From Aphrocallistes beatrix (Eukaryota > Porifera > Hexactinellida > Sceptrulophora > Aphrocallistidae): 64,000 nucleotides of DNA. A model generated the notes under the pieces. The model was not told where the DNA came from. It did no database searches and saw nothing but the letters and a program-made list of their open reading frames with translations. The DNA lies in contig OY725490.1 of NCBI GenBank assembly GCA_963281255.1, positions 1,798,001-1,862,000 on the forward strand, given 5' to 3'. The position numbers and the translations under genes were made by a program. Within the stretch, counting starts at the first letter, position 1. Each line of letters opens with the position of its first letter. Positions 1,684 to 51,512 of the stretch are shown in pieces.

Positions 1684-4600
1684 CTATAGTTGAGTCTATA
1701 AATAAAATAATACAAAAGTTCAGTAAGAAAACTATTCTAAATCCAAGTACGAAAGCTAAATCCTTAAATCTCCTAGATTTCATAATGTGAGAAATTTTAT
1801 TCCATTTCCACCCAAAATTATGATCACAACTTGACCAATAATAAAGATTGATTGCTCAAACAGGATAATTCAGTAACCAACTCGGATAATATTTGGTGAA
1901 TTGGATAATTCATTGCCTGAATAGGATAGTGAGTTAACCTTAGTTGCCCCTGGGATGTTTCTATTTATAGCAAATCTCACACTTACCCGTCCAAAATGGC
2001 TTAAACTGGAATGACGCGACACATTCAAGGGGAACAGAGGTTGATTAAAACCAGCCAATGACTGGGGTCCATTCTATTTATAGCTTGACCCAGAATTTCT
2101 AAGGTTTCCCCGTCCCAAATGACTTAATCGGAAATGAGTTAGCAAAATCCATAGTACATTGATGAGATATATTAAGATAAGTGGAAGTGAATGGCTGGCG
2201 CCACTGATCCGGTTGATACGGTTTTAACCGAACCACTTTTCAAAAGTAATTACCCCCAGGTTGCTCAGGGTAAACCGGACAACTTTTCGAGAGTAGTCCG
2301 GTTGGCTAGGTAAAACCCGGACCACTTCTTAAACTGTGGCACTGGAGTTGCCAAATACAAATAGTACAATATACAGACACCCTCGCTAATCCGAACAGCT
2401 CTGTGCCAATGATCGAAAAAATCGTTCGGATTGGTGAATTTGTTCCGATTAGTGAAATAGTACTAATTCAATGGGGTATTTACTATAATAAATTTGTATT
2501 GTTAGAATATTAAGAATAAAATTTTGTTATGATTGCTTCTTTAATGAGGTTTCTCAATCATTGAAAAATAGAATGTTATAAACGTTGATTTAAAGCGAAT
2601 AAGATTATATTTTGGGTGTTCGGATTATAAGAATGAAGTGTTCGGATTAGCGAGGGTGTACTGCACTTACCTCAACTTCCCACTTGCCCTCGCTTGGATT
2701 CTTATAAACCTTCGAAGAAACTATCTCCCCCATCTCTATACTATGGAAAATAAAGTTGGCATAAATTTTCAGTTAAATCTTATAATTGCAAAATTCAAAT
2801 TGAAGCTAGAGATTTATAGCTTAGAAATATCAAAACTTACTCATTAGTATCTTTCCCATCCTCTGAGGAATCTACAAGGAGATGTCATAAAGAAATTCTC
2901 ATAATTACTTGACAATAAAAAAACAAGAATTAAAAATTACCTCGATCTTTCGATGCAAAAAATGCCCGACAAATTACGGCTGCGAAACAGCACATTAAGA
3001 CAATAGACGCGCATATGATAGCAAGGCTCAAAAGTCCCAGACCGCCAGCAATTGAATCTACTGCAATAAAGGATAAAGAATCAAAATAGTAATCTAGTAA
3101 ATGAAAGTGAAGGCAGAATGTGACTTACTAATATCACCATTAGAAGCGGTGAGGCCAGAAATAAGGGGAACTGGGGTAGGAGAAGGTTGCAGAAGAAATG
3201 ATGTGAGAGATGGAGTGGGAATGATAGCATGAATTGATGAGGTAGCGAGAGGAAGTGATTGAGAAGAAGAATTGCAAGGCAAATAAGATACAACAGTGTG
3301 GTAAACAGTTACATAAACTGTGTGATAAATAACTAGATTTGTAGATGGAACAGTGGGAACAGCTGTAGTTGAAAAATTTTTCATATCTGTAGAAGAAATG
3401 GTAGGTACAGCAGTAGATGAAGCATTTGTTGTATCTGCAGAAGACACGGTAGGGACAGCTGTAGATGAAGCATCTGTTGTATCTGCAGAAGGCACGGTAG
3501 GGACAGCTGTAGATGAAGCATCTGTTGTATCTGTAGAAGGAACGGTAGGGACAGCTGTAGATGAAGCATCTGTTGTATCTGTAGAAGGCACGGTAGGGAG
3601 ATCTGTAGATGAAGCATCTGTTGTATCTGTAAAAGGCACGGTAGGGACAGCTGTAAATGAAGCATCTGTTGCATTTTGATTTTGAGCAGTAGAGGTATCT
3701 GTAGACGAAATAATTGTTACAATTCTAGATGAAACATCTGTTGTATCTGTAGAAGGAACGGTAGGGAGATCTGTAGATGAAACATCTGTTGTATCTGTAG
3801 AAGGAACGGTAGGGAGATCTGTAAATGAGGCATCTGTTGTATCTGTAGAAGGAACGGTAGGGAGATCTGTAGATGAAACATCTGTTGTATCTGTAGAAGG
3901 CACGGTAGGGAGATCTGTAGATGAAGCATCTGTTGTATCTGTAAAAGGCACGGTAGGGACAGCTGTAAATGAAGCATCTGTTGCATTTTGATTTTGAGCA
4001 GTAGAGGTATCTGTAGACGAAATAATTGTTACAATTCTAGATGAAACATCTGTTGTATCTGTAGAAGGAACGGTAGGGAGATCTGTAGATGAAACATCTG
4101 TTGTATCTGTAGAAGGAACGGTAGGGAGATCTGTAAATGAGGCATCTGTTGTATCTGTAGAAGGAACGGTAGGGAGATCTGTAAATGAAGCATCTGTTGT
4201 ATCTGTAGAAGGAACGGTAGGGAGATCTGTAAATGAAGCATCTGTTGTATCTGTAGAAGGAACGGTAGGGAGATCTGTAAATGAAGCATCTGTTGAATCT
4301 GTAAAAGGCACGGTAGGGACAGCTGTAAATGAAGCATCTGTTGAATCTGTAAAAGGCACGGTAGGGACAGCTGTAGATGAAGCATCTGTTGTATCTGTAG
4401 AAGGAACGGTAGGGAGATCTGTAAATGAAGCATCTGTTGTATCTGTAGAAGGAACGGTAGGGACAGCTGTAGATGAAGCATCTGTTGTATCTGTAGAAGG
4501 CACGGTAGGGAGATCTGTAAATGAAGCATCTGTTGAATCTGTAAAAGGCACGGTAGGGAGATCTGTAGATGAAGCATCTGTTGTATCTGTAGAAGGAACG

Positions 4601-51000: not shown

Positions 51001-51512
51001 TTGATTCTTCTTTTTACCTTCATTCTGATGCTCCTCATTGCAATTGGGATATACAATTGCTATCGGATGAAACAAATTTTAGGTAATTTGGTTAATGAAA
51101 TTTGACATGCAAAATTTTGATTGATGAGATTTCATAATTGTTATTTAGATTCAAACCGATCAGCAACGAGATGTGTCAATAGGTATGCACATATTTAGAT
51201 CTTGTTCGATCATTATTTTTGGTTAAATAGTGGATATATTCTTTAATGAAAATATTTCCAACATCTTCTATGAGTTTATCGGTTTAGTTTGGAGGAGAAT
51301 ATCGGAGCTTCAAATAAAGTGTACAATAATACAACCACCGAAATTATTGAAAACATTGAAAACAAGGTATTACAACTAATCGTGTGTTTTTCAGGGAGGA
51401 CTTGTTTGTCATTATGTACACGGTATACGCTTACAGTTCTACAATGTTAGTTCTATTAATGATAATAGTAATTATCTTCTAGATTCCAACTGATACAGAA
51501 TCTCAAGATTAA
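48041..51512 (+). CDS. Gene C: FN3-type single-pass membrane protein of the same family
   Basis: Ten exons: 48041-48101 (signal peptide MKMFCFCFLLIIQGVMISGH), 48330-48397, 48874-49153, 49950-50003, 50097-50150, 50705-50872, 50966-51082 (TM), 51149-51182, 51288-51366 and 51483-51512. Total 314 aa, all GT-AG. The FN3-like domain is split after its Trp (NVAELNW), exactly as in A and B, and ends RLQIISQC like their LQIISQC. Three stalk exons share NSSPPTST-type sequence; the third reads through the donor used by the first two. The tail has ASNKVYNNTTTE and ends TESQD. There is no Ig domain and no minisatellite stalk. It lies in opposite orientation to the other members. I do not recognise an orthologue; it is probably a cell-surface recognition or adhesion protein. 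Confidence 0.75.
48424..48870. repeat. ATT microsatellite filling intron 2 of gene C
   Basis: About 149 ATT units with a few ATC/ACT interruptions run almost to the splice acceptor. The AG at 48872-48873 directly follows the last repeat, so the microsatellite replaces a normal pyrimidine tract. It generates poly-Asn, poly-Ile and poly-Leu open frames that are not genes. Confidence 0.95.
49236..49395. mobile_element. pogo-like MITE, AGAACTCGG family
   Basis: The ends are TACAGTAGAACTCGGATAAG and the inverse of CCGAGTTCTACTGTA, with ACGTAC boxes. A second copy is at 61338-61528. It lies in intron 3 of gene C and shares its terminal TA with a partial AAAACCTC element (49394-49472). Confidence 0.7.
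49471..49805. mobile_element. GAGTTGCA element, gene C copy
   Basis: GC-rich ends (GAGTTGCATGCGGGCC, repeated GCGGGCC) enclose a body matching the element at about 11250-11570, including TTTTCTTATCGGCCC and GGAACTTTGTTA. It interrupts a partial MITE in intron 3 of gene C. Confidence 0.65.
49930..50760. repeat. Tandemly amplified stalk exon of gene C
   Basis: Three copies of an exon plus its flanking intron are recognisable by TTCGTAATT, TGCAGATTCGAATTCTA and CTTCAAGTAACTATA. The introns share CCCCTAACTTATGTC. The second and third copies are separated by a MITE. Confidence 0.9.
50158..50620. mobile_element. Tc1/mariner-like MITE beside a splice donor
   Basis: CACTGCCTGAACAAAAGTAT and its inverse are flanked by TA. 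The inverted arms extend about 130 bp each. It is inserted at about the eighth base of the intron after the second stalk exon of gene C. Confidence 0.8.

Follow-up and report, generated by a model that had tools for sequence, protein, structure and literature searches.

A 1.3-Mb tandem cluster of Ig-like membrane receptor genes in a glass sponge, a candidate family of recognition receptors

The stretch of DNA analysed here, 64,000 nucleotides of the glass sponge Aphrocallistes beatrix (contig OY725490.1, designated C3, positions 1,798,001-1,862,000; hereafter the window), holds five membrane receptor-like genes, A, A2, B, B2 and C, which lie at the distal end of a gene cluster comprising at least 82 related immunoglobulin-like (Ig-like) exons and extending over 1.32 Mb of one contig. 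Cluster coordinates are given on C3 and those of the five genes within the window. The existence of a cluster of membrane receptors that multiply in tandem and diverge in their heads is well supported, and the initial annotation, which had proposed such a group, is in this respect borne out well beyond the window alone. We read the cluster as a large tandem family of type I recognition receptors, likened to the Alr family of Hydractinia or to other variable receptors, and put the probability of this reading at roughly 0.62.

Gene models were obtained by joining exons on GT-AG rules, with one GC donor (the stalk exon of B2). Signal peptides were assigned by eye, and transmembrane (TM) helices by eye and hydrophobicity. 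All five models of the initial annotation could be rebuilt from the DNA in this manner, yielding frames of 1153, 2182 and 314 residues for A, A2 and C and 3' parts of 95 residues for B and B2, and the outer limits it had given, 1684 and 51512, are the exact stop-codon ends of A and C. Gene A (10072..1684, minus strand) comprises ten exons that join by GT-AG splicing into a single open frame of 1153 codons:

10012..10072, minus: signal-peptide exon, phase 0-1 (signal peptide by eye)
9239..9607, minus: Ig-like exon, 1-1
7302..7580, minus: first FN3 exon, 1-1
6335..6402, minus: second FN3, first half, 1-0, ending ..LSW
5988..6261, minus: second FN3, second half, 0-1
3129..5306, minus: mucin-like stalk exon, 1-1, for the most part 48-bp repeats
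2941..3060, minus: TM exon, 1-1
2841..2871, minus: tail exon 1, 1-2
2671..2740, minus: tail exon 2, 2-0, IEM...VYKNP...WEVE
1684..1695, minus: last exon, T-Q-L-stop

Gene A2 (36379..19816, minus strand) has 13 exons, which give a frame of 2182 residues provided that one broken mucin copy is skipped:

36319..36379, minus: signal-peptide exon
35494..35862, minus: Ig-like exon
33010..33909, minus: first FN3-FN3 set (33909-33631, 33432-33362, 33283-33010)
28598..31584, minus: truncated mucin-exon copy
27185..28084, minus: second FN3-FN3 set, identical to the first
21122..25759, minus: mucin-like stalk exon, 39- and 48-bp repeats
21053-20934, minus: TM exon
20864-20834, minus: tail exon 1
20732-20663, minus: tail exon 2
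19827-19816, minus: last exon, T-P-L-stop

Genes B (16186..14310) and B2 (40248..38728), both on the minus strand, have five exons each and matching 95-residue 3' parts that differ at three residues:

16186-16127, minus: gene B stalk exon
15932-15816, minus: gene B TM exon
15418-15385, minus: gene B tail exon 1
15309-15243, minus: gene B tail exon 2
14321-14310, minus: gene B last exon, T-H-L-stop
40248-40189, minus: gene B2 stalk exon, GC donor
39984-39868, minus: gene B2 TM exon
39478-39445, minus: gene B2 tail exon 1
39364-39298, minus: gene B2 tail exon 2
38739-38728, minus: gene B2 last exon, T-H-L-stop

Their known part begins with a 20-residue stalk exon ahead of the TM exon; no signal-peptide exon was found for either gene and, for B, no 5' exon at all. 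Pieces of a non-LTR (long terminal repeat) retroelement, with endonuclease and reverse transcriptase, adjoin the 5' side of gene B (16427-19137, plus strand) and may account for the failure to find its 5' exon. B-A and B2-A2 are a duplicated gene pair: identity is 90-93% in the three longest blocks that surround B and B2, and 9152-11253 is 88% identical to 35404-37552. Gene C (48041..51512, plus strand) joins ten exons into a frame of 314 residues:

48041-48101, plus: signal-peptide exon
48330-48397 and 48874-49153, plus: FN3 halves
49950-50003, 50097-50150 and 50705-50872, plus: three stalk exons
50966-51082, plus: TM exon
51149-51182, plus: tail exon 1
51288-51366, plus: tail exon 2
51483-51512, plus: last exon

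The second FN3 of gene C starts 228 bases after the signal-peptide exon, with no Ig-like or first FN3 exon there. The three stalk exons (54, 54 and 168 bases; 49950-50872, plus strand) are related to one another and stand in tandem, and a (TTA)n array of 149 copies (48425-48872) abuts the acceptor of the FN3 second-half exon.

These genes follow a common exon plan, in which a signal peptide (0-1) is followed by an Ig-like exon (1-1), a first FN3 (1-1), a second FN3 in two exons (1-0 and 0-1) and a stalk (1-1) and, on the 3' side, by a TM exon (1-1), tail 1 (1-2), tail 2 (2-0) and a last exon of 4-10 codons including the stop. The phases shared by the genes are as the initial annotation described them, except that it had overlooked the distribution of the second FN3 over two exons. 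A direct junction between the first FN3 exon and the second-half exon was rejected, as the phases clash (1 into 0), and this clash led to the search for, and discovery of, a first-half exon ending in W immediately before the GT donor. Exons of this sort, ending in TGG before GT, occur at two distant loci as well as in A, A2 and C, and second-half FN3 exons have a phase-0 acceptor in all 15 cases examined (an identical pair among them). The membrane and tail exons, which had been called invariant, are constant in phase, in order and in the [IL]-E-[M/L/E] start of tail 2, but not in sequence, since TM identity amounts to 23% between A and B, 21% between A and C and 32% between B and C. Genome searches with the TM exons list two places for the B type, two for the A type and six for a C-like type. 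Among the matches listed, the DNA block that spans the TM and tail exons of A and A2 is present at full length in these two genes only; the 38 other listed rows are short and match a dispersed repeat that lies at the 3' end of the block. About 58 bases at 20600-20660 (minus strand), in the intron after tail exon 2 of A2, belong to a dispersed repeat found on many contigs at 90-98% identity. The ectodomains, for their part, are better described as one Ig-FN3-FN3 unit that has been repeated or lost than as shuffled.

The extent of the family was established in a single assembly of 100.5 Mb and 28 contigs. The Ig-like exon of A has 90 genome matches at E up to 10, and that of a central member 90 at E up to 0.01. 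The 90 rows of the central-member search were merged with eight further rows of the gene A search, one of which duplicates a central-member row and another of which (E 0.067) fuses with its neighbour; C12:797222 (E 0.045) and three gene A rows above E 1 were excluded. This procedure gives 93 places, 82 of them in C3:518,311-1,833,854 (1.32 Mb) and 11 elsewhere. Clustering this strong has a binomial probability below 10^-139, a figure that is a mere formality because tandem duplication explains it. The second-half FN3 exon behaves similarly, with 75 of its 78 genome matches on C3:516,757-1,847,110. These genome-wide exon counts are lower bounds, and most cluster members are known solely by their Ig or FN3 exons. 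An FN3 half lies on the same strand within 6 kb downstream of 50 of the 82 Ig-like places, as against two on the opposite strand and 26 upstream, and the highest-coordinate family matches fall in the window. Chance does not account for three frames of 314-2182 codons, each assembled from several exons at matching splice sites, together with 82 related Ig exons that share one stretch of the same contig.

The same organization is seen far from the window. Between 600 and 800 kb of C3 the exon order is Ig-like, FN3, FN3, and several of the gaps between an FN3 half and the next Ig-like exon measure just 260-280 bases, so that some proteins may carry several Ig-FN3-FN3 units. Four TM exons lie in this region, at 753, 758, 768 and 797 kb, and two of these four gene ends (753 and 758 kb) display the full series of TM 1-1, tail 1-2 and tail 2-0. 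The scan left the other two incomplete, with only a tail 2 candidate at 797 kb and only tail 1 candidates at 768 kb, and the last exons of the two complete tails were not found. The complete series at 753 and 758 kb nonetheless indicate that the exon plan is common to genes about 1 Mb apart.

Duplication within the cluster is still visible in A2, where an exact tandem duplication (22772-28598 = 28597-34423; 5827 bp, no mismatch) has doubled the FN3 pair, so that the gene now holds two such pairs plus a truncated mucin copy. The repeat ends in a 39-bp repeat array on one side and in non-coding sequence on the other. The truncated copy holds 995 open codons between its acceptor and a stop that lies on the duplication junction. 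A scan for donors revealed a single donor-like site, internal to the copy (30142), with nothing at its end; hence, we would expect the copy to be skipped in splicing, with the frame kept. The alternative of treating A2 as several genes was rejected after the exact repeat had been mapped and the exons found to join into one 2182-residue frame. Since the repeat shows no differences, while dS (substitutions per synonymous site) between A and A2 is 0.075-0.377 in five more 5' exons, the copy is either very young or an assembly error. Elsewhere, three Ig-like exons have equal scores and spacing at C3:1686735-1695267 (plus strand) and C4:2024488-2033020 (minus strand), which may be a recent inter-chromosomal copy or a misassembly, and the Ig-like exons at C3:1544865 and C3:1561490 likewise have equal scores. 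A cluster largely decaying or artefactual, rich in pseudogenes and with exact copies created by assembly, would accommodate the perfect 5827-bp repeat and broken mucin copy of A2, the equal-scoring triplets (C3:1.687-1.695 Mb and C4:2.024-2.033 Mb) and the stops found inside four of the 90 Ig rows of the central-member search. We nonetheless deem this account very improbable, given that the other 86 rows have no internal stop and that A, A2 and C retain intact splice sites and open frames of 1153, 2182 and 314 codons.

Sequence change is distributed unequally over these genes. Between A and A2, the Ig-like exon has a dN (substitutions per non-synonymous site) of 0.135 and a dS of 0.112 (dN/dS 1.21), compared with ratios of 0.52 for the first FN3, 0.81 for the second-half FN3, 0.22 for the stalk end and 0.28 for the signal peptide. 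None of the 40 TM codons is changed, and tail 2 shows one replacement and no silent change, so that dS is 0 in both exons. From 3110 to 2400 in A, 692 of 709 aligned columns match A2, introns included and gap columns excluded, against 140 of 167 just upstream of the tail block (3340-3171) and about 91% near the last exon. The higher match of the 3' block points to gene conversion or to a more recent copying of the tail module. Within the head, eight disjoint pairs of Ig-like exons show a proportion of replacement differences (pN) of 0.184 after the F-strand cysteine and 0.110 in the rest, with silent proportions (pS) of 0.169 and 0.180; a Fisher test on replacement sites gives p=5e-5. The stretch after the F-strand cysteine is thus changing faster, with pN/pS near 1; what we claim is a raised rate of replacement and not positive selection. 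A value of p=0.003 for positive selection in this loop, obtained from nine partly overlapping pairs, was lost with the eight disjoint pairs and discarded.

Faster change at this position suits ligand binding of any kind, and allorecognition, microbe recognition and plain adhesion are all compatible with the data. The genes might belong to an expanded innate-immune family that binds microbial or symbiont ligands rather than kin, and immune receptor expansions (NLR, SRCR) have been reported in sponges, as far as the portions of the literature at hand describe them. Exon-wise Pfam scans of the head modules, however, found no microbe-binding domain, and we regard this option as possible and rather unlikely. 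The genes might also encode cell-type or tissue adhesion molecules that serve sponge cell sorting and aggregation without polymorphic self recognition. An Ig-like head with FN3 modules and a stalk is a common adhesion layout, and replacement among close Ig paralogues falls on average below the silent rate (pooled pN/pS 0.73, nine partly overlapping pairs). On the other hand, a family this large, with members so unequally similar and with a recent duplication that is exact, would in our judgement be unusual for housekeeping adhesion genes, and we find adhesion the less plausible of these two roles.

As recognition receptors, the genes would function through both their heads and their tails. Phosphorylated Y-x-N is a ligand of SH2 type, and a C-terminal T-x-L a ligand of class I PDZ type. 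The tails of A, A2 and C contain Y-x-N, and that of B has F where A has Y. A (TQL), A2 (TPL) and B and B2 (THL) end in T-x-L, the middle residue varying among the A, A2 and B ends while T and L stay, and C ends in SQD. Gene structures, family relationships, clustering, duplication and unequal change are established by the sequence, and from these the reading proceeds by inference to surface expression, ligand binding, signalling and a biological role. Full genes are predicted to encode type I receptors with a signal peptide, a head, FN3-type spacers, one TM helix and a short tail. The Ig-like head of A and A2, with its fast-changing stretch after the F-strand cysteine, would be raised off the membrane by the long mucin-like stalk. 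Heads may then cluster upon contact with self or non-self surfaces, the tails would recruit SH2 and PDZ adaptors at the contact site, and the outcome would be fusion or rejection. The headless B type, with F for Y, could act as a non-phosphorylatable partner or as a competitor for the same scaffold. In its most specific form, the proposal would make the cluster a glass-sponge histocompatibility complex, a single 1.3-Mb locus whose Ig-like receptors decide the fusion of individuals in animals whose tissue is largely one syncytium. Like the allorecognition role put forward in the initial annotation, this rests on analogy, and we advance it as a tentative and fairly doubtful suggestion.

In an alignment of 19 Ig-like exons, Cys 12 and Cys 21 are invariant (19/19) and Cys 99 is present in 90% or more, so that a B-strand/F-strand cysteine pair (Cys 21, Cys 99) is found at Ig spacing. 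The canonical C-strand Trp is missing, with no conserved Trp and an invariant Phe 33 instead, and the F strand reads D-A-G-L-x-L-G-C, with one extra residue and no Tyr, compared with the canonical D-x-G-x-Y-x-C. The cysteine at column 12 is a third invariant one, and the resulting odd number could mean inter-chain bonds. An hhalign comparison of the Ig-like profile with seven Ig domains gave P 0.00094 and a probability of 22%, the 33 aligned columns having G and C in register, against P 0.73-0.78 in three controls. Against the PDB, the same profile returned three weak matches (E 0.2-0.8), none of them named Alr. The first FN3 module is matched by Pfam fn3 in two of 11 members (best E 6.1e-6), A itself being without a match, and an AlphaFold2 (AF2) model of this exon from two sequences has a predicted local distance difference test score (pLDDT) of 42. 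The second FN3 module has no fn3 match either as second half or joined, and hits only unrelated models at E 0.05 or worse.

Several observations weigh against the cluster being a family of Ig-type recognition receptors. Pfam Ig_2 matches just two of the 19 Ig-like exons, at a best E of 0.16; a genome search with canonical Ig_2 places none of the 150 matches listed (of 165) in the cluster (C3:0.5-1.85 Mb), and neither does a V-set search with any of its 42 matches. The AF2 model of the Ig-like exon, from two sequences, has eight strands and a pLDDT of 48.8. Because Pfam, canonical-model and AF2 support is weak, we call the head Ig-like and do not file it as a member of the immunoglobulin superfamily. 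Its designation as Ig in the initial annotation is weakly supported. For 32 of the 82 Ig-like places, the 6 kb downstream yielded no FN3 half. The tail motifs, at three residues each, may be due to chance, Y-x-N is absent from the parts read of the complete far tails (753 and 758 kb), and gene C lacks a T-x-L end. Finally, positive selection after the F-strand cysteine was not significant (Fisher test on nd/sd, p=0.052; window permutation, p=0.14 and 0.33).

The flank of the cluster and the rest of the genome contain further genes of note. A single open frame at 53912-56434 (minus strand) has nine EGF_CA stretches and a weak LRR, together with a 120-bp repeat of 4.1 copies at 98% matches, and three frames on the same strand (59060-59452, 60347-60718 and 62293-62706) comprise the start of a papain-family protease and two CD225-like frames below the Pfam cut-off. 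Other dense fn3 groups among the matches listed, at C1:577-805 kb, C6:777 kb-1.47 Mb, C4:5.2-5.9 Mb and C12:4.33-4.35 Mb, are perhaps separate receptor or adhesion clusters. Loci L001-L008 (on C1 and C4, and at single sites on C6 and C19) were considered for the family and rejected, having no match to the local Ig, FN3 and TM profiles. The mitochondrial contig, C28, has the gene order nad3, cox1, cox2 (nad3 and cox2 named by eye). Its COX1, by alignment, shows AGA where other animals have serine, and AAA at all nine lysines; isoleucine positions carry ATA (42 in cox1), and TGG, which occurs once in nad3, is missing from both cox1 and cox2. The published part consulted for glass sponges describes mitochondrial AGR read as serine, frequent AUA codons and very rare UGG, and an adjacency of nad3 and cox1 in Aphrocallistes vastus (PMC2267718). 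The code of C28 and its nad3-cox1 adjacency hence indicate that the host is most likely a hexactinellid, and on these grounds an origin from a demosponge, a cnidarian, a tunicate or most bilaterians was rejected.

A 1.3-Mb interval with a fixed exon plan provides a concrete candidate for a glass-sponge self/non-self locus, and bears on the question of separate origins of clustered Ig-like recognition loci in sponges, cnidarians and chordates. In the accessible portions of the glass-sponge genome papers (PMC10280926, PMC10282587) an Ig-like receptor cluster was not found, the main text of the latter containing no occurrence of "immunoglobulin". Neither this locus nor any other glass-sponge locus of self/non-self recognition was found in the available portions of the open-licence literature on sponge and glass-sponge allorecognition, Ig clusters and receptor expansions, a scope that leaves most subscription papers outside. 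Glass sponges do have other tandem expansions: the A. vastus cluster of AIG1-domain genes, as described in the portions at hand, comprises 50 genes on one scaffold with a suggested immune role, but 38 of the 50 are single-exon and they are not membrane receptors with Ig-like heads (PMC10282587). The sponge Ig-type adhesion molecules and aggregation factor are surface molecules tied to adhesion and recognition, yet they are single molecules (Geodia) or a proteoglycan factor, and no large gene cluster is described for them in the sections seen (PMC11999971). Among colonial animals, the available account of Botryllus fuhc depicts a highly polymorphic histocompatibility locus (PMC12065747), although in a chordate system.

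The nearest parallel is the Alr complex of Hydractinia, in the sections available a clustered family of at least 41 loci with low mutual identity, whose Alr1 and Alr2 are single-pass membrane proteins and which has been put in the immunoglobulin superfamily by architecture and structure prediction (PMC11067881, PMC11876637). Both systems consist of clustered single-pass membrane receptors with divergent heads, a likeness of layout and of described clustering. Unlike Alr, the sponge unit combines an Ig-like module with two FN3-type modules and mucin stalks of up to 1546 codons; four genes of the window have a T-x-L end, at least 82 Ig exons are gathered in 1.32 Mb, and the phylum is different. 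Clustered recognition receptors are already known as a kind, and what is new here is their architecture and their host.

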